From NCBI GenBank assembly GCA_011947345.1, contig JAAVTG010000598.1, positions 1-64,000 of the forward strand: a stretch of 64,000 nucleotides of DNA, in the 5' to 3' direction. The stretch is from Phytophthora quininea. Its lineage: Eukaryota > Oomycota > Peronosporomycetes > Peronosporales > Peronosporaceae. This document shows positions 7,516 to 60,595 of the stretch, one piece after another; position 1 is the first letter of the stretch, and each line of letters opens with the position of its first letter. A program made the translations under genes and the position numbers. The notes below the pieces were generated by a model. It ran no database searches. It saw only the letters and a list, made by a program, of their open reading frames with translations, and was not told the DNA's origin.

Positions 7516-7550
7516 CGCTCAATAAACTGCTTGTTGTATCTACGGTGCTG

Positions 7551-8790: not shown

Positions 8791-8912
8791 GGGGATTTCG
8801 GCGATTTCGGACTGGAAGGTTATCGGTTTGCTATTTCGGCGAAACGTTTTTCCGTCGATGGATTGATTGAGGGCGCTTGGCACCACGATCAAGCATGTTT
8901 TTATAAAGAACT

Positions 8913-34581: not shown

Positions 34582-34849
34582 GTGTGAGGGCGCCATGACG
34601 GCTGGGGCGACTGTGCCCGCAACGGAAGGTTCGCGGCGGCAGCGCACGTGGCGTTCGAAGGTGGAGAGGAGAGGGAGTTGACGAGGCAGTAGCGTTTTGT
34701 TGTCAATGCGGAGATCCTTGAGGCGCATCTGGAGACCAGGATGGATGGTCGTAGTAGACGTTGCGCGCGTGGGGACGGCGTGCGAGCGCGTGTGGGAGGC
34801 TGTGCGGCGGTGCGAAATTTCGGAGCAGTAGGGTGTGTGGGACTTTGGC

Positions 34850-34853
34850 GCCT

Positions 34854-34911
<58 letters not shown>

Positions 34912-34922
34912 GGGTCGCGGCA
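34850..34922 (+). tRNA. tRNA-Phe (GAA), copy 1 of 36
   Basis: 73 nt. A box TAGCTCAGTTGGG, anticodon loop ACTGAAGAT giving GAA, B box GGTTCGATCCC, and TTTTT terminator directly after the discriminator A. The acceptor stem pairs except for U4 against C69. No intron; CCA is not encoded. All copies read the same to me. Confidence 0.97.
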
Positions 34923-35424
34923 TTTTTGCTGTCTTTCTTGCCTGCGCACTGCCTTTGGAGGCGGCGCACAGCGTTCTGCGTGTACTAGGCGTGGCGTGAC
35001 GGGTCAACGTCGCTCTCGAGGTTGGTAGGGCTGCCACCACTGGCCACCACCGGCCACCACCGGCCACCACCGCCTGGCGCCGCGCGCGATTGCTGTTGGG
35101 TCTGGCTGGCCATGTCGCTCGACGCCAGCGGTGAGCTGAGTGCTGGCCACCGACCGTGCGAGGGCGCCATGACGGCTGGGGCGACTGTGCCCGCAACGGA
35201 AGGTTCGCGGCGGCAGCGCACGTGGCGTTCGAAGGTGGAGAGGAGAGGGAGTTGACGAGGCAGTAGCGTTTTGTTGTCAATGCGGAGATCCTTGAGGCGC
35301 ATCTGGAGACCAGGATGGATGGTCGTAGTAGACGTTGCGCGCGTGGGGACGGCGTGCGAGCGCGTGTGGGAGGCTGTGCGGCGGTGCGAAATTTCGGAGC
35401 AGTAGGGTGTGTGGGACTTTTGGC

Positions 35425-35428
35425 GCCT

Positions 35429-35486
<58 letters not shown>

Positions 35487-35497
35487 GGGTCGCGGCA
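35425..35497 (+). tRNA. tRNA-Phe (GAA), copy 2
   Basis: 575 bp after copy 1. Confidence 0.97.
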
Positions 35498-35997
35498 TTT
35501 TTGCTGTCTTTCTTGCCTGCGCACTGCCTTCGGAGGCGGCGCACAGCGTTCTGCGTGTACTAGGCGTGGCGTGACGGGTCAACGTCGCTCTCGAGGTTGG
35601 TAGGGCTGCCACCACTGGCCACCACCGGCCACCACCGGCCACCACCGCCTGGCGCCGCGCGCGATTGCTGTTGGGTCTGGCTGGCCATGTCGCTCGACGC
35701 CAGCGGTGAGCTGAGTGCTGGCCACCGACCGTGCGAGGGCGCCATGACGGCTGGGGCGACTGTGCCCGCAACGGAAGGTTCGCGGCGGCAGCGCACGTGG
35801 CGTTCGAAGGTGGAGAGGAGAGGGAGTTGACGAGGCAGTAGCGTTTTGTTGTCAATGCGGAGATCCTTGAGGCGCATCTGGAGACCAGGATGGATGGTCG
35901 TAGTAGACGTTGCGCGCGTGGGGACGGCGTGCGAGCGCGTGTGGGAGGCTGTGCGGCGGTGCGAAATTTCGGAGCAGTAGGGTGTGTGACTTTTGGC

Positions 35998-36001
35998 GCC
36001 T

Positions 36002-36059
<58 letters not shown>

Positions 36060-36070
36060 GGGTCGCGGCA
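35998..36070 (+). tRNA. tRNA-Phe (GAA), copy 3
   Basis: 573 bp after copy 2; two bases are missing in the GTGTGTGGGAC stretch just upstream. Confidence 0.97.
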
Positions 36071-36572
36071 TTTTTGCTGTCTTTCTTGCCTGCGCACTGC
36101 CTTCGGAGGCGGCGCACAGCGTTCTGCGTGTACTAGGCGTGGCGTGACGGGTCAACGTCGCTCTCGAGGTTGGTAGGGCTGCCACCACTGGCCACCACCG
36201 GCCACCACCGGCCACCACCGCCTGGCGCCGCGCGCGATTGCTGTTGGGTCTGGCTGGCCATGTCGCTCGACGCCAGCGGTGAGCTGAGTGCTGGCCACCG
36301 ACCGTGCGAGGGCGCCATGACGGCTGGGGCGACTGTGCCCGCAACGGAAGGTTCGCGGCGGCAGCGCACGTGGCGTTCGAAGGTGGAGAGGAGAGGGAGT
36401 TGACGAGGCAGTAGCGTTTTGTTGTCAATGCGGGGATCCTTGAGGCGCATCTGGAGACCAGGATGGATGGTCGTAGTAGACGTTGCGCGCGTGGGGACGG
36501 CGTGCGAGCGCGTGTGGGAGGCTGTGCGGCGGTGCGAAATTTCGGAGCAGTAGGGTGTGTGGGACTTTTGGC

Positions 36573-36576
36573 GCCT

Positions 36577-36634
<58 letters not shown>

Positions 36635-36645
36635 GGGTCGCGGCA
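36573..36645 (+). tRNA. tRNA-Phe (GAA), copy 4
   Basis: 575 bp after copy 3; last copy before the copia insertion. Upstream spacer has the GGGGATCC variant. Confidence 0.97.
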
Positions 36646-36971
36646 TTTTTGCTGTCTTTCTTGCCTGCGCACTGCCTTCGGAGGCGGCGCACAGCGTTCT
36701 GCGTGTACTAGGCGTGGCGTGACGGGTCAACGTCGCTCTCGAGGTTGGTAGGGCTGCCACCACTGGCCACCACCGGCCACCACCGGCCACCACCGCCTGG
36801 CGCCGCGCGCGATTGCTGTTGGGTCTGGCTGGCCATGTCGCTCGACGCCAGCGGTGAGCTGAGTGCTGGCCACCGACCGTGCGAGGGCGCCATGACGGCT
36901 GGGGCGACTGTGCCCGCAACGGAAGGTTCGCGGCGGCAGCGCACGTGGCGTTCGAAGGTGGAGAGGAGAGG

Positions 36972-37465
36972 AAAAGGAAGTTGGACTACGAGCTGCGGAG
37001 GTTGGAAGGGTTAAAGACGGCTTCGGGCCGAGATTGCAAAACCAAAAGTGAGATTGATTGAGTGAGTCTTAGCTGCTAGCCTGCTTCCTACGCTCTCTTG
37101 TTGGCAAAAGAAAAAGCGACCAGGCGGGGAATCGAACCCTCGATCTGTCGAGTGGGAGCCTCCATACTCAACCACTAAGCCAAACTGCTTCAACTAGAAA
37201 CGTCACTCACCTACTCCTAACATGCAGTTCCTTATGCATCCTCACGCGCGTCCACGCCACTTGAGCACTTGGACACGCTCCCATCCGCTTGTTCTCACGC
37301 ACACGCACCGAGTGCGTCTCATCTTGAGCATTAGACGCTGCGCAAAGCCTTGCACTTGTGTAGAGACACGCAACGCACCCTGCGCGCGAACCCACTTTCA
37401 CACGGGTTTTGACAAACCACCGTTTCAAGTGCGAGCGCCACGCACACGCGTCACTTTCTTCAACA
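36972..37465 (-). repeat. 3' LTR of copia element
   Basis: 494 bp, TGTTGAAGAAAG to CTTCCTTTT on the element strand, so the 3' end lacks the usual CA. No difference from the other LTR was noticed. Confidence 0.92.
37116..37188 (-). ncRNA. tRNA-like segment in the copia 3' LTR
   Basis: 73 nt with A box TGGCTTAGTGG, B box GGTTCGATTCC and a TTTTT run directly downstream. The D stem and a loop with Gly-type CCC anticodon can be drawn. The anticodon stem and part of the acceptor stem do not pair well, so it looks tRNA-derived rather than a working tRNA. Confidence 0.6.
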
Positions 37466-37493
37466 CTCTCCCTTGATGCGCGTGCTTGGCGTC

Positions 37494-40400
37494 TTAGTTG
37501 TCCATGACAAGTCCGGCGATGAACTGGCGGTGCTTGGGTCGCGCCAACGCCTTGGTAAACCCGTCCGCTATCATCTCGTCCGTTGGCTTGTACTCCAGCA
37601 CGATGATCTTGTCTTCCACCTTCTCACGCAAAAAGTGATACTTGAGGTGGATGTGCTTGGTGCGTGAGTGGTATGCTGGGTTCTTGGCCAGCGCGATGCA
37701 ACCTTGGTTGTCTTGAAAATCGTAGTCGCACCCACGCACTCATACCCCACATCTTGAAGTAATTGACGCAGCCACACCGCCTCTTGAGTGGCATTGTACA
37801 GTGCCATGTACTCTGCCTCCGTGCTCGACGTTGCCACTGTCGGTTGACGCTTGACTTCCACGAGATTGCACTGCCGTTCAGGAAGAACACGTAGCCTGTA
37901 GTCGAACGCCGAGTGTCCAAATCACCCGCCCAGTTCGCATCCGCGTAGCCGATTAGCTCTCCCTTAGTCCCGCCGTTGAACACGAGTCCCAGGCCTTGAG
38001 TCGTCTTCAAGTACTTCAAAATCCGTTTCGCAGCCACCCAGTGAGACTTGTTGTAGCACTCGCAAAACTTGGCCACTTCACCCACAGCTTGAGCAATGTC
38101 CGGGCGCGTGCAAGTTGCGAGGTACATCAAAGCCCCCACCAACTCGCGGTACGGGTACTTCGGCACGAATACCTCGTCTTCTGCCGGCTTCACCAGTTTT
38201 GAGTTGCTGTCCGCCGGTGTGTGCACTGCTTTGCACTTTTCCACGCCAAACTTCTCTGCGAGCCGCTGAATGTACGCCTGCTGGTTCATGACGATGATCT
38301 TGTCCTCGCGGTCGCGGTGGATCTCGATCCCGAGGCAGTACTTCAGCTCTCCAAGCTCCTTGATGCTGAACTCGCGCTTGAGTGCCTCCTTGATCTCCCC
38401 AATCTCCGCTTTCGTCCTGCTGAAGATCATGAGGTCGTCCACGTAGACGATGATGATGCTGAACTTTGAGACCGAACGCCGAACGTACACGCATGGATCT
38501 GCTGCAGACCGATGAAAACCTTGGTTCTCCAAATGCTTGTTCAGCTTGCTGTTCCACTGACGTGCCGCTTGCTTCGTGCCGTATAGTGCTTGCATCAATA
38601 GGCATTTCTTGTTGGGGTTGGCTTGGTCTTCAAACCCGTCCGGCTGCTCCATATAGAGCTCCTCTTCCACATCACCGTAGAGAAACGCAGTGTCAACATC
38701 CACGTTTTCTGCCTCCATGTCTTCCTCTGCAGCAATTGCCACAGCCGTGTTGATGGACTCCTTGCGTGCGACCGGAGCAAAGGTCTCCGTGTAGTCAACC
38801 CCTGGACGCTGCGTGAAGCCCTTCGCTACCAAACGAGCTTTGAACTTGATGATCTTCCCACTCGGGTCACGCTTGATACGGAAAACCCACTTGCACCCGA
38901 TTGCCTTCTTGTCCGATGGCATATCCACCAGCTTCCACGTGCGGTGATCCTCCAGCGACTTCATCTCGCTTTCCATAGCGCGCAGCCACTCGTCCTTGTA
39001 CTTGCTGCGCATCACTTCGTCGTAAGACACCGCACGCTCGCCATCGTCGTCTTCGGTGAGGAAGCAATAGAGGGAATCGAACTCAGCCTCGTAGTCATCC
39101 AAGTTGAACTCACCCCGTCGAGTCCCGGGGTACTCGTCTTGGTAGCGCACAACTCCGCGTCGCTTGCGTGCCGGACGCACCATCCACTCCTCTTCACCGT
39201 CTCTCCCTGGCGTGCTAGAGCCACGCGTCGGCACAGAGTCGGTCGGTCCGCTGTGATCTTCGGGTTCTTGGAGTGGGCGAGTTGGGGGCGTGCGGAAACC
39301 TTCGTCAGCGCTGGGTTCTTGCGTGCGCTCGCCTCCCTCGTCTTCTTCATCGTTGTCGATGATGTCGATCACCTCCTGGTTGGCCTTCTTCGCCATCGTG
39401 ACCGGCGGGGCTTCAGCAAAAGTCACACTCCTTGAAATCACGATCGAGTCGTCACTTGGGTCCAGGAGTCGATATGCTTTGTGCTGCTTGGCGTATCCGA
39501 GGAAAACGCACTTGATCCCCGAGTTGTCCAGCTTTTTGCGTTTCTCCTTGGTCGCATGGGCGTAGCACTCGGTCCCAAAAACGCGCATGTGCTCCAGACG
39601 TGGCTCCCTCTTGAAAACCAGCCGGAACGGACTCGAGTGCGGGCTTGACGTGTTAGGTAACACGTTTCGGATGTCTGCAGCCGTCGTGATAGCCTCACAC
39701 CAGTACGATTTGTCCATGCCGCTCTCCTCCAGCATGCAGCGTGTCATTTCCACCAGCGTACGGTTCATGCGCTCTGCCATGCCGTTCTGCTGCGGGTTGT
39801 ACGGCACCGTGAACTCTTGCTTGATTGTTTTGTCGTCGCATAGAGTCTGCATCGCCGCGTTGCGGTATTCACCGCCGTTGTCACTGCGCAGCACCTTGAC
39901 CTTGATGCCCGCACTAGTTTCCACTTCCTTGAGAAACTTCTTGAACGCCTCACACACCTCACTCTTTTATGGAGTGGGTAGATCGTCACAAAGCGACTCT
40001 TCATCAGAATGAAGCTCACAATGTACTTGTAGCCCGACTTGGACGCGGGAGTGACAGGTCCCAACACGTCGGAGCACACAGTCGTGTCCTTGCGTGCGCT
40101 CTCCTGGCTTCGAGCCCCTCCTTGGTCGAACTGAAAGGCTTGCGTGACTGTTTCGCAGTCGCACACACGCCGCACACAGTACCAGGCTCTGCCAGCACAC
40201 CCTTGAGTTTCCCATCCTTGATCATGGAGTTCAACGTGCTGAAAGACACGTGACCAAGTCGCCGATGCCACACATCCACGCTGTCTTCAGCCACATGACA
40301 CTCGTCGGCGCCCTCAATGTTGAGGTACATCAGCTTGCCTTGCTTCCTGCCCGTCGCCACCACTTGGTTGCCGCGTTTCACAACGCACCGCTCGCTGTCC

Positions 40401-40710
40401 ATAGTCACGGTCATGCCGCGTGCCGTTGCAGCCGTCAGGGAAAACAGGTTCTTGTTCAAATCTTGGACGTGGAGCGTGTTTTCCAGCCGCGCGTTTATCC
40501 ACGCACCCCAGTCCAGACACGCAAAACAACTGTTCCAACCCCGAGAATCTTCAGGTTCGCGCTGTTCTTTGCGCTCAATATGCTGCGCGCAGTCTTTACA
40601 GCCGAGTAGTCGTGAAACGCGTCGCGTGTCTTGCACATGTGTGCCGACGCACCGCTATCCATCACCCAACACTCGCTCGCAAAAGCTTCGGTCGCGTTAA
40701 ACGCAACGTT
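37494..40710 (-). CDS. pol: Copia pol: protease, integrase, reverse transcriptase, RNase H (frameshifted)
   Basis: Order from 40710 down: aspartic protease DSGASAHMC (about 40650); the pre-integrase zinc finger with VWHRRLGHVSF and CGVCATAKQ (about 40150-40270); integrase core with LRSDNGGEY (about 39880) and NGMAERMNRTLVEM (about 39770). Then comes RT in one 777-residue frame (37624-39957) with KWVFRIKRDPSGK, ARLVAKGFTQRPGVDY, DVDTAFLYGDVEEELYMEQPDGF and the active site VYVDDLMIF (about 38430). RNase H follows with YADANWAGD, TVATSSTEAEYMAL and DNQGCIALAKN, ending AGLVMDN at 37494. One-base frame changes occur at protease/pre-integrase, at about 40100 and 39960 within the integrase, and twice in RNase H (about 37860 and 37740). 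With the LTRs so alike, these may be base-calling errors. Confidence 0.9.
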
Positions 40711-41444
40711 TGACTGGTCTTGGGCGCCTTGATCGGGACTTGCCTCGGAACGGCAATCCCTCGCGTAGTGGCCTTGCTTGCCACAGTTGTAGCACTTGAA
40801 TGACCCCTTCTTGCGCCCCCGCGTGCGTTCTTCTTCTGTTGCTGCTGCTTCCCACTGCCCTTGCCGGCAAGAAGCGCAGTCGCCTCTTCGATGCGCGTCG
40901 AGTCCTTCTGACGCACTTCTTCCGCAATCAGCTTGCTCACCAGGTCTGCTAGCTTGAACTCAGTCACCGACATGCGAAACGCTTGAACCAGAGCCTCGTA
41001 GCTCGATGGCAGACTCCGCAGCATAGTCGCGCAGACGTCTTCCTCAGTTGGCTCACAGCCGGCGTTCTTCATATCCATCACGAGCTTCTCCAACTCCGTC
41101 ACATGCTTGCCGACAGATGGTGCCGTGAACTTGAACGCCGAAAACTTCTCCTTGAGCCACAGCCGGTTCGCCATGTCTTGAGTCTTGTGGAACTTCTTCA
41201 ACGTGTCCCACGCTTCCTTCGCAGTCTCGCACGTCACCACATGCATCAACTGCGAGTCGTTGAGGTTGAGCACAATCGCCGCGTGCGCTTGTTGCTCCTT
41301 CTCTGCCGTCACTCCGCCTTCCGCGGTGACCGCTTGCCACAATCCCTTGGACATCAGGTACATCTTCATCTTGTAGCTCCACAGCGAGTAGTTCGAGCCG
41401 TCGAAAGGCTCGACCTTGAACTTGGTGTCGGTACTTGGGCTCAT
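40711..41444 (-). CDS. gag: Copia gag with CCHC zinc knuckle (one frameshift)
   Basis: Nucleocapsid protein that packages element RNA. ATG at 41444 (MSPSTDTKFKVEPFDGSNYSLW) gives the typical copia gag start, followed by the UBN2-type gag domain (KMKMYLMSKGLWQAV, AKEAWDTLKKFH, LPSSYEALVQAF). The knuckle CYNCGKQGHYARDC (about 40760) is in a shifted frame: a run of five C (40816-40820, G on the element strand) separates it from the gag domain. The start codon is only 5 bp from the end of the 5' LTR and overlaps the primer-binding site, so there is practically no leader. Confidence 0.88.
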
Positions 41445-41448
41445 AACC

Positions 41449-41942
41449 AAAAGGAAGTTGGACTACGAGCTGCGGAGGTTGGAAGGGTTAAAGACGGCTT
41501 CGGGCCGAGATTGCAAAACCAAAAGTGAGATTGATTGAGTGAGTCTTAGCTGCTAGCCTGCTTCCTACGCTCTCTTGTTGGCAAAAGAAAAAGCGACCAG
41601 GCGGGGAATCGAACCCTCGATCTGTCGAGTGGGAGCCTCCATACTCAACCACTAAGCCAAACTGCTTCAACTAGAAACGTCACTCACCTACTCCTAACAT
41701 GCAGTTCCTTATGCATCCTCACGCGCGTCCACGCCACTTGAGCACTTGGACACGCTCCCATCCGCTTGTTCTCACGCACACGCACCGAGTGCGTCTCATC
41801 TTGAGCATTAGACGCTGCGCAAAGCCTTGCACTTGTGTAGAGACACGCAACGCACCCTGCGCGCGAACCCACTTTCACACGGGTTTTGACAAACCACCGT
41901 TTCAAGTGCGAGCGCCACGCACACGCGTCACTTTCTTCAACA
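41449..41942 (-). repeat. 5' LTR of copia element
   Basis: 494 bp, same length as the partner LTR, with the tRNA-like segment at 41593-41665. Confidence 0.92.
41593..41665 (-). ncRNA. tRNA-like segment in the copia 5' LTR
   Basis: Same 73-nt sequence as in the 3' LTR, with A box, B box and TTTTT in element orientation. Confidence 0.6.
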
Positions 41943-42123
41943 AGAGGGAGTTGACGAGGCAGTAGCGTTTTGTTGTCAATGCGGAGATCCTTGAGGCGCA
42001 TCTGGAGACCAGGATGGATGGTCGTAGTAGACGTTGCGCGCGTGGGGACGGCGTGCGAGCGCGTGTGGGAGGCTGTGCGGCGGTGCGAAATTTCGGAGCA
42101 GTAGGGTGTGTGGGACTTTTGGC

Positions 42124-42127
42124 GCCT

Positions 42128-42185
<58 letters not shown>

Positions 42186-42196
42186 GGGTCGCGGCA
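42124..42196 (+). tRNA. tRNA-Phe (GAA), copy 5
   Basis: First copy after copia; four-T terminator instead of five. Confidence 0.96.
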
Positions 42197-42697
42197 TTTT
42201 GCTGTCTTTCTTGCCTGCGCACTGCCTTCGGAGGCGGCGCACAGCGTTCTGCGTGTACTAGGCGTGGCGTGACGGGTCAACGTCGCTCTCGAGGTTGGTA
42301 GGGCTGCCACCACTGGCCACCACCGGCCACCACCGGCCACCACCGCCTGGCGCCGCGCGCGATTGCTGTTGGGTCTGGCTGGCCATGTCGCTCGACGCCA
42401 GCGGTGAGCTGAGTGCTGGCCACCGACCGTGCGAGGGCGCCATGACGGCTGGGGCGACTGTGCCCGCAACGGAAGGTTCGCGGCGGCAGCGCACGTGGCG
42501 TTCGAAGGTGGAGAGGAGAGGGAGTTGACGAGGCAGTAGCGTTTTGTTGTCAATGCGGGGATCCTTGAGGCGCATCTGGAGACCAGGATGGATGGTCGTA
42601 GTAGACGTTGCGCGCGTGGGGACGGCGTGCGAGCGCGTGTGGGAGGCTGTGCGGCGGTGCGAAATTTCGGAGCAGTAGGGTGTGTGGGACTTTTGGC

Positions 42698-42701
42698 GCC
42701 T

Positions 42702-42759
<58 letters not shown>

Positions 42760-42770
42760 GGGTCGCGGCA
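42698..42770 (+). tRNA. tRNA-Phe (GAA), copy 6
   Basis: 574 bp after copy 5; upstream GGGGATCC variant. Confidence 0.97.
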
Positions 42771-43271
42771 TTTTTGCTGTCTTTCTTGCCTGCGCACTGC
42801 CTTCGGAGGCGGCGCACAGCGTTCTGCGTGTACTAGGCGTGGCGTGACGGGTCAACGTCGCTCTCGAGGTTGGTAGGGCTGCCACCACTGGCCACCACCG
42901 GCCACCACCGGCCACCACCGCCTGGCGCCGCGCGCGATTGCTGTTGGGTCTGGCTGGCCATGTCGCTCGACGCCAGCGGTGAGCTGAGTGCTGGCCACCG
43001 ACCGTGCGAGGGCGCCATGACGGCTGGGGCGACTGTGCCCGCAACGGAAGGTTCGCGGCGGCAGCGCACGTGGCGTTCGAAGGTGGAGAGGAGAGGGAGT
43101 TGACGAGGCAGTAGCGTTTTGTTGTCAATGCGGAGATCCTTGAGGCGCATCTGGAGACCAGGATGGATGGTCGTAGTAGACGTTGCGCGCGTGGGGACGG
43201 CGTGCGAGCGCGTGTGGGAGGCTGTGCGGCGGTGCGAAATTTCGGAGCAGTAGGGTGTGTGGGACTTTGGC

Positions 43272-43275
43272 GCCT

Positions 43276-43333
<58 letters not shown>

Positions 43334-43344
43334 GGGTCGCGGCA
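43272..43344 (+). tRNA. tRNA-Phe (GAA), copy 7
   Basis: 574 bp after copy 6; three-T variant (GACTTTGGCG) upstream. Confidence 0.97.
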
Positions 43345-43845
43345 TTTTTGCTGTCTTTCTTGCCTGCGCACTGCCTTCGGAGGCGGCGCACAGCGTTCTG
43401 CGTGTACTAGGCGTGGCGTGACGGGTCAACGTCGCTCTCGAGGTTGGTAGGGCTGCCACCACTGGCCACCACCGGCCACCACCGGCCACCACCGCCTGGC
43501 GCCGCGCGCGATTGCTGTTGGGTCTGGCTGGCCATGTCGCTCGACGCCAGCGGTGAGCTGAGTGCTGGCCACCGACCGTGCGAGGGCGCCATGACGGCTG
43601 GGGCGACTGTGCCCGCAACGGAAGGTTCGCGGCGGCAGCGCACGTGGCGTTCGAAGGTGGAGAGGAGAGGGAGTTGACGAGGCAGTAGCGTTTTGTTGTC
43701 AATGCGGAGATCCTTGAGGCGCATCTGGAGACCAGGATGGATGGTCGTAGTAGACGTTGCGCGCGTGGGGACGGCGTGCGAGCGCGTGTGGGAGGCTGTG
43801 CGGCGGTGCGAAATTTCGGAGCAGTAGGGTGTGTGGGACTTTGGC

Positions 43846-43849
43846 GCCT

Positions 43850-43907
<58 letters not shown>

Positions 43908-43918
43908 GGGTCGCGGCA
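43846..43918 (+). tRNA. tRNA-Phe (GAA), copy 8
   Basis: 574 bp after copy 7; three-T variant upstream. Confidence 0.97.
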
Positions 43919-44420: not shown

Positions 44421-44424
44421 GCCT

Positions 44425-44482
<58 letters not shown>

Positions 44483-44493
44483 GGGTCGCGGCA
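44421..44493 (+). tRNA. tRNA-Phe (GAA), copy 9
   Basis: 575 bp after copy 8; spacer has GTAGGGTTTTG instead of GTAGCGTTTTG. Confidence 0.97.
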
Positions 44494-44995: not shown

Positions 44996-44999
44996 GCCT

Positions 45000-45057
<58 letters not shown>

Positions 45058-45068
45058 GGGTCGCGGCA
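44996..45068 (+). tRNA. tRNA-Phe (GAA), copy 10
   Basis: 575 bp after copy 9. Confidence 0.97.
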
Positions 45069-45570: not shown

Positions 45571-45574
45571 GCCT

Positions 45575-45632
<58 letters not shown>

Positions 45633-45643
45633 GGGTCGCGGCA
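45571..45643 (+). tRNA. tRNA-Phe (GAA), copy 11
   Basis: 575 bp after copy 10. Confidence 0.97.
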
Positions 45644-46144: not shown

Positions 46145-46148
46145 GCCT

Positions 46149-46206
<58 letters not shown>

Positions 46207-46217
46207 GGGTCGCGGCA
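46145..46217 (+). tRNA. tRNA-Phe (GAA), copy 12
   Basis: 574 bp after copy 11; one G missing in GAGAGGAGTTG upstream. Confidence 0.97.
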
Positions 46218-46719: not shown

Positions 46720-46723
46720 GCCT

Positions 46724-46781
<58 letters not shown>

Positions 46782-46792
46782 GGGTCGCGGCA
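46720..46792 (+). tRNA. tRNA-Phe (GAA), copy 13
   Basis: 575 bp after copy 12. Confidence 0.97.
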
Positions 46793-47284: not shown

Positions 47285-47288
47285 GCCT

Positions 47289-47346
<58 letters not shown>

Positions 47347-47357
47347 GGGTCGCGGCA
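47285..47357 (+). tRNA. tRNA-Phe (GAA), copy 14
   Basis: 565 bp after copy 13; one spacer decamer missing. Confidence 0.97.
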
Positions 47358-47859: not shown

Positions 47860-47863
47860 GCCT

Positions 47864-47921
<58 letters not shown>

Positions 47922-47932
47922 GGGTCGCGGCA
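47860..47932 (+). tRNA. tRNA-Phe (GAA), copy 15
   Basis: 575 bp after copy 14; downstream GCGCACGGCG variant. Confidence 0.97.
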
Positions 47933-48434: not shown

Positions 48435-48438
48435 GCCT

Positions 48439-48496
<58 letters not shown>

Positions 48497-48507
48497 GGGT
48501 CGCGGCA
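48435..48507 (+). tRNA. tRNA-Phe (GAA), copy 16
   Basis: 575 bp after copy 15. Confidence 0.97.
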
Positions 48508-49009: not shown

Positions 49010-49013
49010 GCCT

Positions 49014-49071
<58 letters not shown>

Positions 49072-49082
49072 GGGTCGCGGCA
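49010..49082 (+). tRNA. tRNA-Phe (GAA), copy 17
   Basis: 575 bp after copy 16. Confidence 0.97.
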
Positions 49083-49584: not shown

Positions 49585-49588
49585 GCCT

Positions 49589-49646
<58 letters not shown>

Positions 49647-49657
49647 GGGTCGCGGCA
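49585..49657 (+). tRNA. tRNA-Phe (GAA), copy 18
   Basis: 575 bp after copy 17. Confidence 0.97.
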
Positions 49658-50159: not shown

Positions 50160-50163
50160 GCCT

Positions 50164-50221
<58 letters not shown>

Positions 50222-50232
50222 GGGTCGCGGCA
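50160..50232 (+). tRNA. tRNA-Phe (GAA), copy 19
   Basis: 575 bp after copy 18. Confidence 0.97.
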
Positions 50233-50734: not shown

Positions 50735-50738
50735 GCCT

Positions 50739-50796
<58 letters not shown>

Positions 50797-50807
50797 GGGT
50801 CGCGGCA
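50735..50807 (+). tRNA. tRNA-Phe (GAA), copy 20
   Basis: 575 bp after copy 19; downstream GCGCACGCGTTC variant with one base lost. Confidence 0.97.
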
Positions 50808-51308: not shown

Positions 51309-51312
51309 GCCT

Positions 51313-51370
<58 letters not shown>

Positions 51371-51381
51371 GGGTCGCGGCA
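51309..51381 (+). tRNA. tRNA-Phe (GAA), copy 21
   Basis: 574 bp after copy 20. Confidence 0.97.
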
Positions 51382-51883
51382 TTTTTGCTGTCTTTCTTGC
51401 CTGCGCACTGCCTTTGGAGGCGGCGCACAGCGTTCTGCGTGTACTAGGCGTGGCGTGACGGGTCAACGTCGCTCTCGAGGTTGGTAGGGCTGCCACCACT
51501 GGCCACCACCGGCCACCACCGGCCACCACCGCCTGGCGCCGCGCGCGATTGCTGTTGGGTCTGGCTGGCCATGTCGCTCGACGCCAGCGGTGAGCTGAGT
51601 GCTGGCCACCGACCGTGCGAGGGCGCCATGACGGCTGGGGCGACTGTGCCCGCAACGGAAGGTTCGCGGCGGCAGCGCACGTGGCGTTCGAAGGTGGAGA
51701 GGAGAGGGAGTTGACGAGGCAGTAGCGTTTTGTTGTCAATGCGGAGATCCTTGAGGCGCATCTGGAGACCAGGATGGATGGTCGTAGTAGACGTTGCGCG
51801 CGTGGGGACGGCGTGCGAGCGCGTGTGGGAGGCTGTGCGGCGGTGCGAAATTTCGGAGCAGTAGGGTGTGTGGGACTTTTGGC

Positions 51884-51887
51884 GCCT

Positions 51888-51945
<58 letters not shown>

Positions 51946-51956
51946 GGGTCGCGGCA
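51884..51956 (+). tRNA. tRNA-Phe (GAA), copy 22
   Basis: 575 bp after copy 21. Confidence 0.97.
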
Positions 51957-52457
51957 TTTTTGCTGTCTTTCTTGCCTGCGCACTGCCTTTGGAGGCGGCG
52001 CACAGCGTTCTGCGTGTACTAGGCGTGGCGTGACGGGTCAACGTCGCTCTCGAGGTTGGTAGGGCTGCCACCACTGGCCACCACCGGCCACCACCGGCCA
52101 CCACCGCCTGGCGCCGCGCGCGATTGCTGTTGGGTCTGGCTGGCCATGTCGCTCGACGCCAGCGGTGAGCTGAGTGCTGGCCACCGACCGTGCGAGGGCG
52201 CCATGACGGCTGGGGCGACTGTGCCCGCAACGGAAGGTTCGCGGCGGCAGCGCACGTGGCGTTCGAAGGTGGAGAGGAGAGGAGTTGACGAGGCAGTAGC
52301 GTTTTGTTGTCAATGCGGAGATCCTTGAGGCGCATCTGGAGACCAGGATGGATGGTCGTAGTAGACGTTGCGCGCGTGGGGACGGCGTGCGAGCGCGTGT
52401 GGGAGGCTGTGCGGCGGTGCGAAATTTCGGAGCAGTAGGGTGTGTGGGACTTTTGGC

Positions 52458-52461
52458 GCCT

Positions 52462-52519
<58 letters not shown>

Positions 52520-52530
52520 GGGTCGCGGCA
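52458..52530 (+). tRNA. tRNA-Phe (GAA), copy 23
   Basis: 574 bp after copy 22; GAGAGGAGTTG variant upstream. Confidence 0.97.
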
Positions 52531-53031
52531 TTTTTGCTGTCTTTCTTGCCTGCGCACTGCCTTTGGAGGCGGCGCACAGCGTTCTGCGTGTACTAGGCGT
52601 GGCGTGACGGGTCAACGTCGCTCTCGAGGTTGGTAGGGCTGCCACCACTGGCCACCACCGGCCACCACCGGCCACCACCGCCTGGCGCCGCGCGCGATTG
52701 CTGTTGGGTCTGGCTGGCCATGTCGCTCGACGCCAGCGGTGAGCTGAGTGCTGGCCACCGACCGTGCGAGGGCGCCATGACGGCTGGGGCGACTGTGCCC
52801 GCAACGGAAGGTTCGCGGCGGCAGCGCACGTGGCGTTCGAAGGTGGAGAGGAGAGGAGTTGACGAGGCAGTAGCGTTTTGTTGTCAATGCGGAGATCCTT
52901 GAGGCGCATCTGGAGACCAGGATGGATGGTCGTAGTAGACGTTGCGCGCGTGGGGACGGCGTGCGAGCGCGTGTGGGAGGCTGTGCGGCGGTGCGAAATT
53001 TCGGAGCAGTAGGGTGTGTGGGACTTTTGGC

Positions 53032-53035
53032 GCCT

Positions 53036-53093
<58 letters not shown>

Positions 53094-53104
53094 GGGTCGC
53101 GGCA
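53032..53104 (+). tRNA. tRNA-Phe (GAA), copy 24
   Basis: 574 bp after copy 23; GAGAGGAGTTG variant upstream. Confidence 0.97.
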
Positions 53105-53606
53105 TTTTTGCTGTCTTTCTTGCCTGCGCACTGCCTTTGGAGGCGGCGCACAGCGTTCTGCGTGTACTAGGCGTGGCGTGACGGGTCAACGTCGCTCTCG
53201 AGGTTGGTAGGGCTGCCACCACTGGCCACCACCGGCCACCACCGGCCACCACCGCCTGGCGCCGCGCGCGATTGCTGTTGGGTCTGGCTGGCCATGTCGC
53301 TCGACGCCAGCGGTGAGCTGAGTGCTGGCCACCGACCGTGCGAGGGCGCCATGACGGCTGGGGCGACTGTGCCCGCAACGGAAGGTTCGCGGCGGCAGCG
53401 CACGTGGCGTTCGAAGGTGGAGAGGAGAGGGAGTTGACGAGGCAGTAGCGTTTTGTTGTCAATGCGGAGATCCTTGAGGCGCATCTGGAGACCAGGATGG
53501 ATGGTCGTAGTAGACGTTGCGCGCGTGGGGACGGCGTGCGAGCGCGTGTGGGAGGCTGTGCGGCGGTGCGAAATTTCGGAGCAGTAGGGTGTGTGGGACT
53601 TTTGGC

Positions 53607-53610
53607 GCCT

Positions 53611-53668
<58 letters not shown>

Positions 53669-53679
53669 GGGTCGCGGCA
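53607..53679 (+). tRNA. tRNA-Phe (GAA), copy 25
   Basis: 575 bp after copy 24. Confidence 0.97.
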
Positions 53680-54180
53680 TTTTTGCTGTCTTTCTTGCCT
53701 GCGCACTGCCTTTGGAGGCGGCGCACAGCGTTCTGCGTGTACTAGGCGTGGCGTGACGGGTCAACGTCGCTCTCGAGGTTGGTAGGGCTGCCACCACTGG
53801 CCACCACCGGCCACCACCGGCCACCACCGCCTGGCGCCGCGCGCGATTGCTGTTGGGTCTGGCTGGCCATGTCGCTCGACGCCAGCGGTGAGCTGAGTGC
53901 TGGCCACCGACCGTGCGAGGGCGCCATGACGGCTGGGGCGACTGTGCCCGCAACGGAAGGTTCGCGGCGGCAGCGCACGTGGCGTTCGAAGGTGGAGAGG
54001 AGAGGAGTTGACGAGGCAGTAGCGTTTTGTTGTCAATGCGGAGATCCTTGAGGCGCATCTGGAGACCAGGATGGATGGTCGTAGTAGACGTTGCGCGCGT
54101 GGGGACGGCGTGCGAGCGCGTGTGGGAGGCTGTGCGGCGGTGCGAAATTTCGGAGCAGTAGGGTGTGTGGGACTTTTGGC

Positions 54181-54184
54181 GCCT

Positions 54185-54242
<58 letters not shown>

Positions 54243-54253
54243 GGGTCGCGGCA
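54181..54253 (+). tRNA. tRNA-Phe (GAA), copy 26
   Basis: 574 bp after copy 25; GAGAGGAGTTG variant upstream. Confidence 0.97.
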
Positions 54254-54755
54254 TTTTTGCTGTCTTTCTTGCCTGCGCACTGCCTTTGGAGGCGGCGCAC
54301 AGCGTTCTGCGTGTACTAGGCGTGGCGTGACGGGTCAACGTCGCTCTCGAGGTTGGTAGGGCTGCCACCACTGGCCACCACCGGCCACCACCGGCCACCA
54401 CCGCCTGGCGCCGCGCGCGATTGCTGTTGGGTCTGGCTGGCCATGTCGCTCGACGCCAGCGGTGAGCTGAGTGCTGGCCACCGACCGTGCGAGGGCGCCA
54501 TGACGGCTGGGGCGACTGTGCCCGCAACGGAAGGTTCGCGGCGGCAGCGCACGTGGCGTTCGAAGGTGGAGAGGAGAGGGAGTTGACGAGGCAGTAGCGT
54601 TTTGTTGTCAATGCGGAGATCCTTGAGGCGCATCTGGAGACCAGGATGGATGGTCGTAGTAGACGTTGCGCGCGTGGGGACGGCGTGCGAGCGCGTGTGG
54701 GAGGCTGTGCGGCGGTGCGAAATTTCGGAGCAGTAGGGTGTGTGGGACTTTTGGC

Positions 54756-54759
54756 GCCT

Positions 54760-54817
<58 letters not shown>

Positions 54818-54828
54818 GGGTCGCGGCA
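54756..54828 (+). tRNA. tRNA-Phe (GAA), copy 27
   Basis: 575 bp after copy 26; four-T terminator. Confidence 0.96.
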
Positions 54829-55328
54829 TTTTGCTGTCTTTCTTGCCTGCGCACTGCCTTTGGAGGCGGCGCACAGCGTTCTGCGTGTACTAGGCGTGGC
54901 GTGACGGGTCAACGTCGCTCTCGAGGTTGGTAGGGCTGCCACCACTGGCCACCACCGGCCACCACCGGCCACCACCGCCTGGCGCCGCGCGCGATTGCTG
55001 TTGGGTCTGGCTGGCCATGTCGCTCGACGCCAGCGGTGAGCTGAGTGCTGGCCACCGACCGTGCGAGGGCGCCATGACGGCTGGGGCGACTGTGCCCGCA
55101 ACGGAAGGTTCGCGGCGGCAGCGCACGTGGCGTTCGAAGGTGGAGAGGAGAGGGAGTTGACGAGGCAGTAGCGTTTTGTTGTCAATGCGGAGATCCTTGA
55201 GGCGCATCTGGAGACCAGGATGGATGGTCGTAGTAGACGTTGCGCGCGTGGGGACGGCGTGCGAGCGCGTGTGGGAGGCTGTGCGGCGGTGCGAAATTTC
55301 GGAGCAGTAGGGTGTGTGGGACTTTGGC

Positions 55329-55332
55329 GCCT

Positions 55333-55390
<58 letters not shown>

Positions 55391-55401
55391 GGGTCGCGGC
55401 A
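55329..55401 (+). tRNA. tRNA-Phe (GAA), copy 28
   Basis: 573 bp after copy 27; three-T variant upstream. Confidence 0.97.
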
Positions 55402-55902
55402 TTTTTGCTGTCTTTCTTGCCTGCGCACTGCCTTTGGAGGCGGCGCACAGCGTTCTGCGTGTACTAGGCGTGGCGTGACGGGTCAACGTCGCTCTCGAGG
55501 TTGGTAGGGCTGCCACCACTGGCCACCACCGGCCACCACCGGCCACCACCGCCTGGCGCCGCGCGCGATTGCTGTTGGGTCTGGCTGGCCATGTCGCTCG
55601 ACGCCAGCGGTGAGCTGAGTGCTGGCCACCGACCGTGCGAGGGCGCCATGACGGCTGGGGCGACTGTGCCCGCAACGGAAGGTTCGCGGCGGCAGCGCAC
55701 GTGGCGTTCGAAGGTGGAGAGGAGAGGGAGTTGACGAGGCAGTAGCGTTTTGTTGTCAATGCGGAGATCCTTGAGGCGCATCTGGAGACCAGGATGGATG
55801 GTCGTAGTAGACGTTGCGCGCGTGGGGACGGCGTGCGAGCGCGTGTGGGAGGCTGTGCGGCGGTGCGAAATTTCGGAGCAGTAGGGTGTGTGGGACTTTG
55901 GC

Positions 55903-55906
55903 GCCT

Positions 55907-55964
<58 letters not shown>

Positions 55965-55975
55965 GGGTCGCGGCA
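55903..55975 (+). tRNA. tRNA-Phe (GAA), copy 29
   Basis: 574 bp after copy 28; three-T variant upstream. Confidence 0.97.
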
Positions 55976-56467
55976 TTTTTGCTGTCTTTCTTGCCTGCGC
56001 ACTGCCTTTGGAGGCGGCGCACAGCGTTCTGCGTGTACTAGGCGTGGCGTGACGGGTCAACGTCGCTCTCGAGGTTGGTAGGGCTGCCACCACTGGCCAC
56101 CACCGGCCACCACCGCCTGGCGCCGCGCGCGATTGCTGTTGGGTCTGGCTGGCCATGTCGCTCGACGCCAGCGGTGAGCTGAGTGCTGGCCACCGACCGT
56201 GCGAGGGCGCCATGACGGCTGGGGCGACTGTGCCCGCAACGGAAGGTTCGCGGCGGCAGCGCACGTGGCGTTCGAAGGTGGAGAGGAGAGGGAGTTGACG
56301 AGGCAGTAGCGTTTTGTTGTCAATGCGGAGATCCTTGAGGCGCATCTGGAGACCAGGATGGATGGTCGTAGTAGACGTTGCGCGCGTGGGGACGGCGTGC
56401 GAGCGCGTGTGGGAGGCTGTGCGGCGGTGCGAAATTTCGGAGCAGTAGGGTGTGTGGGACTTTTGGC

Positions 56468-56471
56468 GCCT

Positions 56472-56529
<58 letters not shown>

Positions 56530-56540
56530 GGGTCGCGGCA
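56468..56540 (+). tRNA. tRNA-Phe (GAA), copy 30
   Basis: 565 bp after copy 29; one spacer decamer missing. Confidence 0.97.
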
Positions 56541-57042
56541 TTTTTGCTGTCTTTCTTGCCTGCGCACTGCCTTTGGAGGCGGCGCACAGCGTTCTGCGTG
56601 TACTAGGCGTGGCGTGACGGGTCAACGTCGCTCTCGAGGTTGGTAGGGCTGCCACCACTGGCCACCACCGGCCACCACCGGCCACCACCGCCTGGCGCCG
56701 CGCGCGATTGCTGTTGGGTCTGGCTGGCCATGTCGCTCGACGCCAGCGGTGAGCTGAGTGCTGGCCACCGACCGTGCGAGGGCGCCATGACGGCTGGGGC
56801 GACTGTGCCCGCAACGGAAGGTTCGCGGCGGCAGCGCACGTGGCGTTCGAAGGTGGAGAGGAGAGGGAGTTGACGAGGCAGTAGCGTTTTGTTGTCAATG
56901 CGGAGATCCTTGAGGCGCATCTGGAGACCAGGATGGATGGTCGTAGTAGACGTTGCGCGCGTGGGGACGGCGTGCGAGCGCGTGTGGGAGGCTGTGCGGC
57001 GGTGCGAAATTTCGGAGCAGTAGGGTGTGTGGGACTTTTGGC

Positions 57043-57046
57043 GCCT

Positions 57047-57104
<58 letters not shown>

Positions 57105-57115
57105 GGGTCGCGGCA
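57043..57115 (+). tRNA. tRNA-Phe (GAA), copy 31
   Basis: 575 bp after copy 30; the downstream spacer switches to the CCTTCGGAGG variant. Confidence 0.97.
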
Positions 57116-57617
57116 TTTTTGCTGTCTTTCTTGCCTGCGCACTGCCTTCGGAGGCGGCGCACAGCGTTCTGCGTGTACTAGGCGTGGCGTGACGGGTCAA
57201 CGTCGCTCTCGAGGTTGGTAGGGCTGCCACCACTGGCCACCACCGGCCACCACCGGCCACCACCGCCTGGCGCCGCGCGCGATTGCTGTTGGGTCTGGCT
57301 GGCCATGTCGCTCGACGCCAGCGGTGAGCTGAGTGCTGGCCACCGACCGTGCGAGGGCGCCATGACGGCTGGGGCGACTGTGCCCGCAACGGAAGGTTCG
57401 CGGCGGCAGCGCACGTGGCGTTCGAAGGTGGAGAGGAGAGGGAGTTGACGAGGCAGTAGCGTTTTGTTGTCAATGCGGAGATCCTTGAGGCGCATCTGGA
57501 GACCAGGATGGATGGTCGTAGTAGACGTTGCGCGCGTGGGGACGGCGTGCGAGCGCGTGTGGGAGGCTGTGCGGCGGTGCGAAATTTCGGAGCAGTAGGG
57601 TGTGTGGGACTTTTGGC

Positions 57618-57621
57618 GCCT

Positions 57622-57679
<58 letters not shown>

Positions 57680-57690
57680 GGGTCGCGGCA
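57618..57690 (+). tRNA. tRNA-Phe (GAA), copy 32
   Basis: 575 bp after copy 31. Confidence 0.97.
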
Positions 57691-58191
57691 TTTTTGCTGT
57701 CTTTCTTGCCTGCGCACTGCCTTCGGAGGCGGCGCACAGCGTTCTGCGTGTACTAGGCGTGGCGTGACGGGTCAACGTCGCTCTCGAGGTTGGTAGGGCT
57801 GCCACCACTGGCCACCACCGGCCACCACCGGCCACCACCGCCTGGCGCCGCGCGCGATTGCTGTTGGGTCTGGCTGGCCATGTCGCTCGACGCCAGCGGT
57901 GAGCTGAGTGCTGGCCACCGACCGTGCGAGGGCGCCATGACGGCTGGGGCGACTGTGCCCGCAACGGAAGGTTCGCGGCGGCAGCGCACGTGGCGTTCGA
58001 AGGTGGAGAGGAGAGGGAGTTGACGAGGCAGTAGCGTTTTGTTGTCAATGCGGAGATCCTTGAGGCGCATCTGGAGACCAGGATGGATGGTCGTAGTAGA
58101 CGTTGCGCGCGTGGGGACGGCGTGCGAGCGCGTGTGGGAGGCTGTGCGGCGGTGCGAAATTTCGGAGCAGTAGGGTGTGTGGGACTTTGGC

Positions 58192-58195
58192 GCCT

Positions 58196-58253
<58 letters not shown>

Positions 58254-58264
58254 GGGTCGCGGCA
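58192..58264 (+). tRNA. tRNA-Phe (GAA), copy 33
   Basis: 574 bp after copy 32; three-T variant upstream. Confidence 0.97.
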
Positions 58265-58765
58265 TTTTTGCTGTCTTTCTTGCCTGCGCACTGCCTTCGG
58301 AGGCGGCGCACAGCGTTCTGCGTGTACTAGGCGTGGCGTGACGGGTCAACGTCGCTCTCGAGGTTGGTAGGGCTGCCACCACTGGCCACCACCGGCCACC
58401 ACCGGCCACCACCGCCTGGCGCCGCGCGCGATTGCTGTTGGGTCTGGCTGGCCATGTCGCTCGACGCCAGCGGTGAGCTGAGTGCTGGCCACCGACCGTG
58501 CGAGGGCGCCATGACGGCTGGGGCGACTGTGCCCGCAACGGAAGGTTCGCGGCGGCAGCGCACGTGGCGTTCGAAGGTGGAGAGGAGAGGGAGTTGACGA
58601 GGCAGTAGCGTTTTGTTGTCAATGCGGAGATCCTTGAGGCGCATCTGGAGACCAGGATGGATGGTCGTAGTAGACGTTGCGCGCGTGGGGACGGCGTGCG
58701 AGCGCGTGTGGGAGGCTGTGCGGCGGTGCGAAATTTCGGAGCAGTAGGGTGTGTGGGACTTTGGC

Positions 58766-58769
58766 GCCT

Positions 58770-58827
<58 letters not shown>

Positions 58828-58838
58828 GGGTCGCGGCA
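58766..58838 (+). tRNA. tRNA-Phe (GAA), copy 34
   Basis: 574 bp after copy 33; three-T variant upstream. Confidence 0.97.
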
Positions 58839-59340
58839 TTTTTGCTGTCTTTCTTGCCTGCGCACTGCCTTCGGAGGCGGCGCACAGCGTTCTGCGTGTA
58901 CTAGGCGTGGCGTGACGGGTCAACGTCGCTCTCGAGGTTGGTAGGGCTGCCACCACTGGCCACCACCGGCCACCACCGGCCACCACCGCCTGGCGCCGCG
59001 CGCGATTGCTGTTGGGTCTGGCTGGCCATGTCGCTCGACGCCAGCGGTGAGCTGAGTGCTGGCCACCGACCGTGCGAGGGCGCCATGACGGCTGGGGCGA
59101 CTGTGCCCGCAACGGAAGGTTCGCGGCGGCAGCGCACGTGGCGTTCGAAGGTGGAGAGGAGAGGGAGTTGACGAGGCAGTAGCGTTTTGTTGTCAATGCG
59201 GAGATCCTTGAGGCGCATCTGGAGACCAGGATGGATGGTCGTAGTAGACGTTGCGCGCGTGGGGACGGCGTGCGAGCGCGTGTGGGAGGCTGTGCGGCGG
59301 TGCGAAATTTCGGAGCAGTAGGGTGTGTGGGACTTTTGGC

Positions 59341-59344
59341 GCCT

Positions 59345-59402
<58 letters not shown>

Positions 59403-59413
59403 GGGTCGCGGCA
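59341..59413 (+). tRNA. tRNA-Phe (GAA), copy 35
   Basis: 575 bp after copy 34. Confidence 0.97.
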
Positions 59414-59915
59414 TTTTTGCTGTCTTTCTTGCCTGCGCACTGCCTTTGGAGGCGGCGCACAGCGTTCTGCGTGTACTAGGCGTGGCGTGACGGGTCAACG
59501 TCGCTCTCGAGGTTGGTAGGGCTGCCACCACTGGCCACCACCGGCCACCACCGGCCACCACCGCCTGGCGCCGCGCGCGATTGCTGTTGGGTCTGGCTGG
59601 CCATGTCGCTCGACGCCAGCGGTGAGCTGAGTGCTGGCCACCGACCGTGCGAGGGCGCCATGACGGCTGGGGCGACTGTGCCCGCAACGGAAGGTTCGCG
59701 GCGGCAGCGCACGTGGCGTTCGAAGGTGGAGAGGAGAGGGAGTTGACGAGGCAGTAGCGTTTTGTTGTCAATGCGGGGATCCTTGAGGCGCATCTGGAGA
59801 CCAGGATGGATGGTCGTAGTAGACGTTGCGCGCGTGGGGACGGCGTGCGAGCGCGTGTGGGAGGCTGTGCGGCGGTGCGAAATTTCGGAGCAGTAGGGTG
59901 TGTGGGACTTTTGGC

Positions 59916-59919
59916 GCCT

Positions 59920-59977
<58 letters not shown>

Positions 59978-59988
59978 GGGTCGCGGCA
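59916..59988 (+). tRNA. tRNA-Phe (GAA), copy 36
   Basis: 575 bp after copy 35; GGGGATCC variant upstream. Last copy; the array ends about 470 bp later. Confidence 0.97.
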
Positions 59989-60595
59989 TTTTTGCTGTCT
60001 TTCTTGCCTGCGCACTGCCTTCGGAGGCGGCGCACAGCGTTCTGCGTGTACTAGGCGTGGCGTGACGGGTCAACGTCGCTCTCGAGGTTGGTAGGGCTGC
60101 CACCACTGGCCACCACCGGCCACCACCGGCCACCACCGCCTGGCGCCGCGCGCGATTGCTGTTGGGTCTGGCTGGCCATGTCGCTCGACGCCAGCGGTGA
60201 GCTGAGTGCTGGCCACCGACCGTGCGAGGGCGCCATGACGGCTGGGGCGACTGTGCCCGCAACGGAAGGTTCGCGGCGGCAGCGCACGTGGCGTTCGAAG
60301 GTGGAGAGGAGAGGGAGTTGACGAGGCAGTAGCGTTTTGTTGTCAATGCGGAGATCCTTGAGGCGCATCTGGAGACCAGGATGGATGGTCGTAGTAGACG
60401 TTGCGCGCGTGGGGACGGCGTGCGAGCGCGTGTGGGAGGCTGTGCGGCGGTGCGAAATTTTGCAGAGTCGCTAACAAGAGGCCAGGTCAAGCTTCATATC
60501 CGCTCCGTTGTAGACTTCTAAGTATCACCGCTCTAGTCGCCACTATCTCCGAGGCCCAAGCATCTGCTGTCCCGCTCGCCTGTGCCACACCAACC

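Follow-up and report, generated by a model that had tools for sequence, protein, structure and literature searches.

A tandem array of 36 tRNA-Phe(GAA) genes in Phytophthora quininea and its comparison with a second, most likely allelic, version in the same assembly

The question raised by the first 64,000 bases of a Phytophthora quininea contig (JAAVTG010000598.1, here C589, 83,102 bp) is what kind of locus is formed by dozens of identical transfer RNA (tRNA) genes. This stretch, referred to below as the window, belongs to an assembly of 87.2 Mb in 993 contigs and contains a tandem array of a 574/575-bp tRNA-Phe unit at 34582-60460 on the plus strand. Published readings of such arrays disagree, as they were treated as tRNA genes in P. 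infestans (PMC9584435) and as elements resembling short interspersed nuclear elements (SINEs) in Peronospora effusa (PMC11540230). Two diverged copies of the array are present in this one genome and provide a direct test, the outcome of which favours tRNA genes under selection. Very probably this is an oomycete nuclear locus for tRNA-Phe(GAA), of Peronosporales type, in which ordinary RNA polymerase III (Pol III) genes form one tandem array per chromosome copy.

ARAGORN identified 36 tRNA-Phe(GAA) genes in the 64-kb window, all on the plus strand, and no other tRNA, while Rfam model RF00005 matched the same 36 genes at 62.7 bits each against a gathering score of 29. The GAA anticodon and a covariance score above the curated threshold were found in 36/36 genes, and the 73-nt tRNA sequence was identical across all copies. 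The A box (TAGCTCAGTTGG) and B box (GGTTCGATCCC) were present and identical in every gene, and the T-run terminator consisted of 5 T after 34 genes and 4 T after the other two. The original prediction had described 36 identical plus-strand genes, each with A box, B box and T-run, at 565-575-bp spacing over about 20.9 kb once a copia insertion is subtracted, and these features were confirmed, with no loss of promoter boxes and a net length of 20,908 bp. An array of 36 genes is far beyond chance. A 3' CCA was not encoded in any array tRNA-Phe gene, and 66 of the 73 positions were identical to human tRNA-Phe. No exact match to the tRNA core was found among viral contigs (0 matches).

The limits of the array were set by searching the window with a single unit by BLAST, in which each unit matched at 98-100% identity; the reference was 43272-43845, the unit of tRNA-Phe 7. 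The array begins with a partial unit at 34582-34849 (unit positions 307-574, plus strand) and ends with a nearly full one (unit positions 1-545). Based on ARAGORN, Rfam RF00005 and the unit BLAST, tRNA-Phe genes 1 to 12 are located on the plus strand at 34850-34922, 35425-35497, 35998-36070, 36573-36645, 42124-42196, 42698-42770, 43272-43344, 43846-43918, 44421-44493, 44996-45068, 45571-45643 and 46145-46217, where gene 4 carries the copia insertion in its spacer. Genes 13 to 24 follow at 46720-46792, 47285-47357, 47860-47932, 48435-48507, 49010-49082, 49585-49657, 50160-50232, 50735-50807, 51309-51381, 51884-51956, 52458-52530 and 53032-53104, and genes 25 to 36 at 53607-53679, 54181-54253, 54756-54828, 55329-55401, 55903-55975, 56468-56540, 57043-57115, 57618-57690, 58192-58264, 58766-58838, 59341-59413 and 59916-59988. 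Gene-to-gene spacing was 573-575 bp with the exception of one interval of 5551 bp, caused by the copia insertion, and two of 565 bp (units 13 and 29), each of which was without one copy of a 10-bp spacer repeat (GCCACCACCG). The spacer thus contains a 10-bp minisatellite. Long antisense open frames run across tRNA and spacer; these are taken as incidental because their lengths are not the same in both arrays (the longest stretch free of stops is 233 codons on C589 and 177 on the second array) and no Pfam match was obtained for the one antisense frame examined.

The original prediction had suggested a look for the same unit at other loci, and a tRNA search found a second array on the minus strand of contig C8 (600,108 bp). 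This array consists of 29 exact tRNA-Phe copies with a spacing of 561-567 bp and a unit size of 566/567 bp compared to 574/575 bp on C589. The upstream flank of the window at 1-11064 (plus strand) aligned collinearly with C8 534814-523826 at 96.5% identity, and the downstream flank at C589 71754-82585 aligned with C8 501577-489001 at 97.1-97.4% in two overlapping pieces, up to the end of the compared C8 stretch. Both alignments were in the orientation matching the arrays. On C589 the array is separated from the aligned flanks by 23.5 kb on the upstream side and 11.3 kb on the downstream side, and on C8 by about 4.6 kb and 1.5 kb, respectively; Gypsy-like and other open frames lie in the longer C589 stretches. 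The two arrays are read as, most likely, two alleles of one locus. The RPB2 N-terminal domain family was located at four places in the assembly, and three RPB2-type genes are expected in eukaryotes. Since these places number four and not a doubled six, the assembly is for the most part collapsed, and the Phe locus is taken as a diverged region whose copies stayed separate; a fully phased (doubled) assembly was set aside on the same count. At a distance of about 1.3 kb from the C8 array (L023 5524-5820, C8:520524-520820), a piece of the Phe spacer lies in inverted orientation at 90% identity and lacks the tRNA.

Comparison of the two arrays separates the tRNA from its surroundings. Fixed differences between C589 and C8 numbered 0/73 in the tRNA and 27/490 in the spacer (p 0.037), and a single unit from each array differed at 30 mismatches over 489 aligned spacer positions with 16 gap columns. 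Spacer divergence was 5-6% in comparison to 2.6-3.5% in the flanks. One unit pair from each of two further tRNA families gave 0/72 in the tRNA and 80/1071 in the remainder with 336 gap columns for Thr(TGT) (C136 and C551), and 0/74 and 52/1369 with 162 gap columns for Lys(TTT) (C432 and C473). When Phe, Thr and Lys were pooled, differences amounted to 0/219 in the tRNA and 159/2930 in the spacer (p 1.6e-5), a pool that combines fixed differences for Phe with single-pair differences for Thr and Lys and in which two-sided collinear flanks were shown for Phe only. Purifying selection on the tRNA is supported by the Phe comparison and by the pool, and these patterns favour real and selected tRNA genes over a SINE-like label.

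Within each array the units are homogenised, as originally predicted. The mean pairwise difference was 0.17% among 34 C589 units and 0.21% among 28 C8 units, while it reached 5.3% between the sets; the C589 set comprised the full units, leaving out unit 4, which is split by the insertion, and the incomplete unit 36. All variable columns among the 34 C589 units fell in the spacer or the T run and none in the tRNA. The earlier statement that spacers are as conserved as the tRNA holds to the extent that spacers are near-identical within an array, and fails in that all variation lies outside the tRNA and the spacer differs by 5-6% from C8 where the tRNA does not differ at all. Spacer variants were clustered in adjacent C589 units, with 12 neighbour pairs compared to 3.6 expected (p 5e-5). 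This analysis used six variant patterns present in at least two units, with a linked pair at 572/574 merged and single-unit variants dropped, and units 3 and 5 were treated as neighbours in place of the omitted unit 4. Such patchy sharing of variants is the trace expected from unequal exchange or local conversion. Because units differ by about 0.2% within and 5.3% between arrays, homogenisation operates within each chromosome's array and not between the two, and the locus illustrates how arrays can evolve in concert inside a chromosome copy and yet not across copies.

Whether the genome holds tRNA-Phe genes elsewhere was addressed by assembly-wide word-based searches. The array tRNA-Phe gave 65 first-look candidates, and the best 40 of these 65 were divided into 11 on C589 and 29 on C8. 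A search with human tRNA-Phe also gave 65 candidates with the same best 40. The 36 and 29 genes counted directly add up to 65, and all candidates are therefore accounted for by number. A spacer query returned 68 candidates, of which the best 40 included 35 on C589 and 5 on C8. No further tRNA-Phe gene was found in the assembly by these word-based searches with two tRNA queries, from which diverged genes may escape. In a parallel search for tRNA-Trp, 16/16 matches were on C62, C514 and C515, mostly about 2.67 kb or multiples thereof apart within a contig, as in a trimeric array on C62, and no stand-alone gene was found for either tRNA-Phe or tRNA-Trp by word-based search of the assembly. The array, in its two versions, looks like the whole tRNA-Phe gene supply of the genome.

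Under the favoured reading of ordinary tRNA genes, recombination inside a chromosome, by unequal exchange between sister chromatids or by gene conversion, would expand, shrink and homogenise the array, selection for a working tRNA-Phe would keep the 73-nt gene fixed, and the array would supply the cytosolic tRNA-Phe of the cell. The intact genes and their Pol III signals support the earlier suggestion that the array can supply tRNA-Phe. If it is the sole source, annotation pipelines in which such arrays are masked because they are taken for transposons would discard the tRNA genes of the organism. A more tentative and rather doubtful extension is that each isotype is supplied only by its own array and that parental chromosomes homogenise separately, making tRNA-Phe dosage an allele-specific, fast-changing copy-number trait, and that tRNA-Phe, like several other array tRNAs, works with a permanent acceptor-stem mismatch that would need tolerance by the synthetase or a repair or editing step.

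Several observations weigh against the reading as ordinary tRNA genes with one array per chromosome copy. The fourth pair of the acceptor stem is a U4-C69 mismatch in every one of the 65 copies, leaving 6/7 pairs formed, so that the fully paired stem which is a usual feature, and not a strict requirement, of tRNA-Phe was not observed. The 73-mer also folded no better than dinucleotide shuffles (z 0.45). The selection test restricted to Phe is weak (p 0.037), and clustering of variants on C8 was not significant, with 5 neighbour pairs compared to 3.1 expected (p 0.14). A tRNA-Phe of diverged sequence could be missed when the search relies on words, and the same search tool gave only 4 candidates with the 574-bp unit as query; long-unit searches under-report, and the counts given here are from short-query searches and direct sequence. 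The C8 contig could be a segmental duplicate and not an allele, and the copy numbers of 36 and 29 are from one assembly only.

In yeast tRNA-Phe the corresponding position of the acceptor stem is occupied by a weak G-U pair. Among nine tRNA types compared, one mismatch each was present in Phe, Thr(TGT) (G5-G68) and Arg(ACG) (C4-A69), and the Lys(TTT) stem was irregular. Of the types added to this comparison, with Glu, Ser(GCT) and one Thr omitted as out of register, Arg(CCG) had one mismatch (G5-A68) and Tyr and a 71-nt gene typed as Ser(ACT) had none. A literature search for acceptor-stem mismatches in oomycete tRNAs turned up nothing on point by title or by the start of the abstract.

It is quite unlikely that the 574-bp unit is a SINE-like or tRNA-derived satellite, a selfish repeat with a tRNA head of the kind proposed for P. 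effusa on the basis of rapid expansion, open reading frames in the spacers and unit size (PMC11540230). The long antisense open frames and the 10-bp minisatellite in the Phe spacer would suit such an element, as would the acceptor-stem mismatch in every tRNA-Phe copy. Open-frame lengths nevertheless differ between the arrays (233 and 177 codons), the tRNA is fixed while the spacer diverges, and a genome without the array would be left with no tRNA-Phe, as no other was found by the word-based searches. A SINE is expected in dispersed copies, while the best 40 of 65 tRNA candidates and the best 40 of 68 spacer candidates were all on C589 and C8. Units joined head to tail have no free ends at which the target-site duplications and the A-rich or LINE-derived 3' tail of a SINE could be recognised. 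A sampled Tyr unit has an interrupted anticodon loop as in spliced tRNA-Tyr, which also speaks for genes, and the P. effusa authors themselves place each family at one site and describe it as probably non-mobile (PMC11540230). The tRNA-derived satellite that the original prediction had listed as one option is disfavoured by the same conservation of the tRNA and by the lack of a further tRNA-Phe in the searches.

A structural role, in which the array would be kept as a chromatin boundary, nuclear anchor or chromosome end and its tRNA product would be secondary, is unlikely, even as such roles are discussed for the tRNA arrays of P. infestans (PMC9584435), Entamoeba (PMC2652664) and human 1q23.3 (PMC4041453). 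The array is not at a contig end, with 34.6 kb and 22.6 kb of C589 on its two sides, and the C8 array is 80 kb and 503 kb from its contig ends, which leaves the suggested Entamoeba-like role at chromosome ends unsupported. Between the alleles the spacer is no better conserved than the flanks, at 5-6% divergence compared to 2.6-3.5%. An assembly artefact, in which 36 copies were falsely expanded or collapsed from a few, is very unlikely. The units are nearly identical and a warning about assembly-dependent copy numbers has been given for P. infestans (PMC9584435), but because both arrays are flanked on both sides within their contigs, differ in unit length (574/575 and 566/567 bp) and at 27 fixed positions, and the variants are patchy along the C589 array, the array itself is real. 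The numbers 36 and 29 may be off.

Other tRNA families in the assembly are arranged in a similar way. Monomeric arrays included Thr(TGT) on C136 and C551, with 12 exact copies each in the compared stretches, Lys(TTT) on C432 and C473, and Glu(CTC)-type repeats on C33. Also monomeric is a Tyr(GTA) unit with 770-bp spacing and 14 matches on C8, where the second Phe array is located too (L035, C8:247700-248700), and it is the sampled unit of this array that has the interrupted anticodon loop. Two arrays are trimeric: C86 contains Arg(ACG)-Gln(TTG)-Gln(CTG), and the unit on C62 is Thr(CGT)-Trp(CCA)-Ser(GCT). In the Thr(TGT) array of C136, two units have the same large insert of 5000 and 5006 bp (L008 3041-8041 and L009 3096-8102), and the two copies are 98.9% identical in an alignment of 5029 columns, which includes 52 gap positions. 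A third gap, 7781 bp long, has only parts of the large insert in common with them. A shared insert would be expected if units were duplicated in blocks.

A pattern running from B box to T run gave 567 matches across the assembly compared to 5 for a reversed control, the 567 including double counts from the variable gap. A general tRNA pattern was rejected as an array finder, as it mostly matched a dispersed family whose members have A and B boxes resembling those of a tRNA, for example on C552, C664 and C420. These members made up 35 of the 37 matches, were located on 21 contigs and looked alike by eye. This dispersed family is probably a SINE. On contig C389, at about 93-141 kb, one set of tRNAs recurs after about 36.6 kb; this may be a mitochondrial genome that was assembled in repeated form.

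The insertion in the spacer of unit 4 is a copia-type long terminal repeat (LTR) retrotransposon of 4971 bp at 36972-41942 on the minus strand, delimited by unit BLAST coordinates, LTRs and domains. Its two 494-bp LTRs at 36972-37465 and 41449-41942 (minus strand) are 100% identical, and a 5-bp target duplication, AGAGG, is present at 36967-36971 and 41943-41947. Two minus-strand open frames contain the domains RVT_2, SH3_retrovirus and Retrotran_gag_2 (copia-type gag). Since the LTRs are identical, the insertion is recent and the element a passenger. About 283 bases into the LTR there are motifs resembling an A box and a B box (TGGCTTAGTGG ... GGGTTCGATTCCCC), with a T run after them, and no Rfam match at E <= 1 was obtained for the insert. 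Elsewhere in the window, 8913-11041 and 21988-23881 are related gene copies in opposite orientation with shared protein stretches, without a Pfam match in the frames examined; the C8 flank has high identity to the 8913-11041 copy and 68-81% to the 21988-23881 copy.

A single-isotype array of this size had been regarded as unusual for an oomycete, and this view is contradicted by published arrays in P. infestans (PMC9584435) and P. effusa (PMC11540230) and by the other arrays of this genome. The Phe array belongs to this already published kind and is small at 36 copies. It has the features of an oomycete monomeric tandem tRNA array, namely head-to-tail copies of a single gene in near-identical units at one place, the latter if the C8 and C589 arrays are alleles. 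P. infestans is reported to have thousands of tRNA genes, about 64% of them in single-gene tandem arrays, including 271 copies of tRNA-Cys in a 513-nt unit, with a warning that array copy numbers vary with the assembly (Matson et al. 2022, PMC9584435). The arrays described there resemble the Phe array in their single-gene tandem arrangement, near-identical units of about 500 bp, grouping of variants along the array and single location for most families, and the P. infestans trimer Thr(CGT)-Trp(CCA)-Ser(GCT) was found here too, on C62. That study differs in species and isotype, and what is new here is the direct comparison of two versions of one array, of 36 and 29 genes, with collinear flanks.

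In P. effusa, clusters of 10 to 970 tRNA genes are described that account for about 99.6% of annotated tRNA genes, each family is at one place and probably unable to mobilise, and copy number varies between isolates (PMC11540230). The Arg cluster there, with a 717-bp unit, is similar to the Phe array in having a 100% identical tRNA and a spacer of 94.9-98.9% identity. The P. effusa clusters are far larger and were classed as SINE-like, whereas the evidence here favours tRNA genes. Entamoeba is comparable in that most tRNA genes are in tandem arrays of homogenised units, with 1 to 5 tRNA types per unit, but is an unrelated lineage, and in E. histolytica and E. dispar the spacers contain complex short tandem repeats (PMC2652664). 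The chromosome-end role of those arrays is put forward as a proposal (PMC2652664), and both Phe arrays are interior on their contigs, which are not whole chromosomes. The human tRNA array at 1q23.3, a tandem repeat of variable number with 9-43 units per allele, offers a further likeness, as little is conserved between human and mouse outside the tRNA genes, and is set apart by its 7.3-kb CTCF-binding units (PMC4041453).

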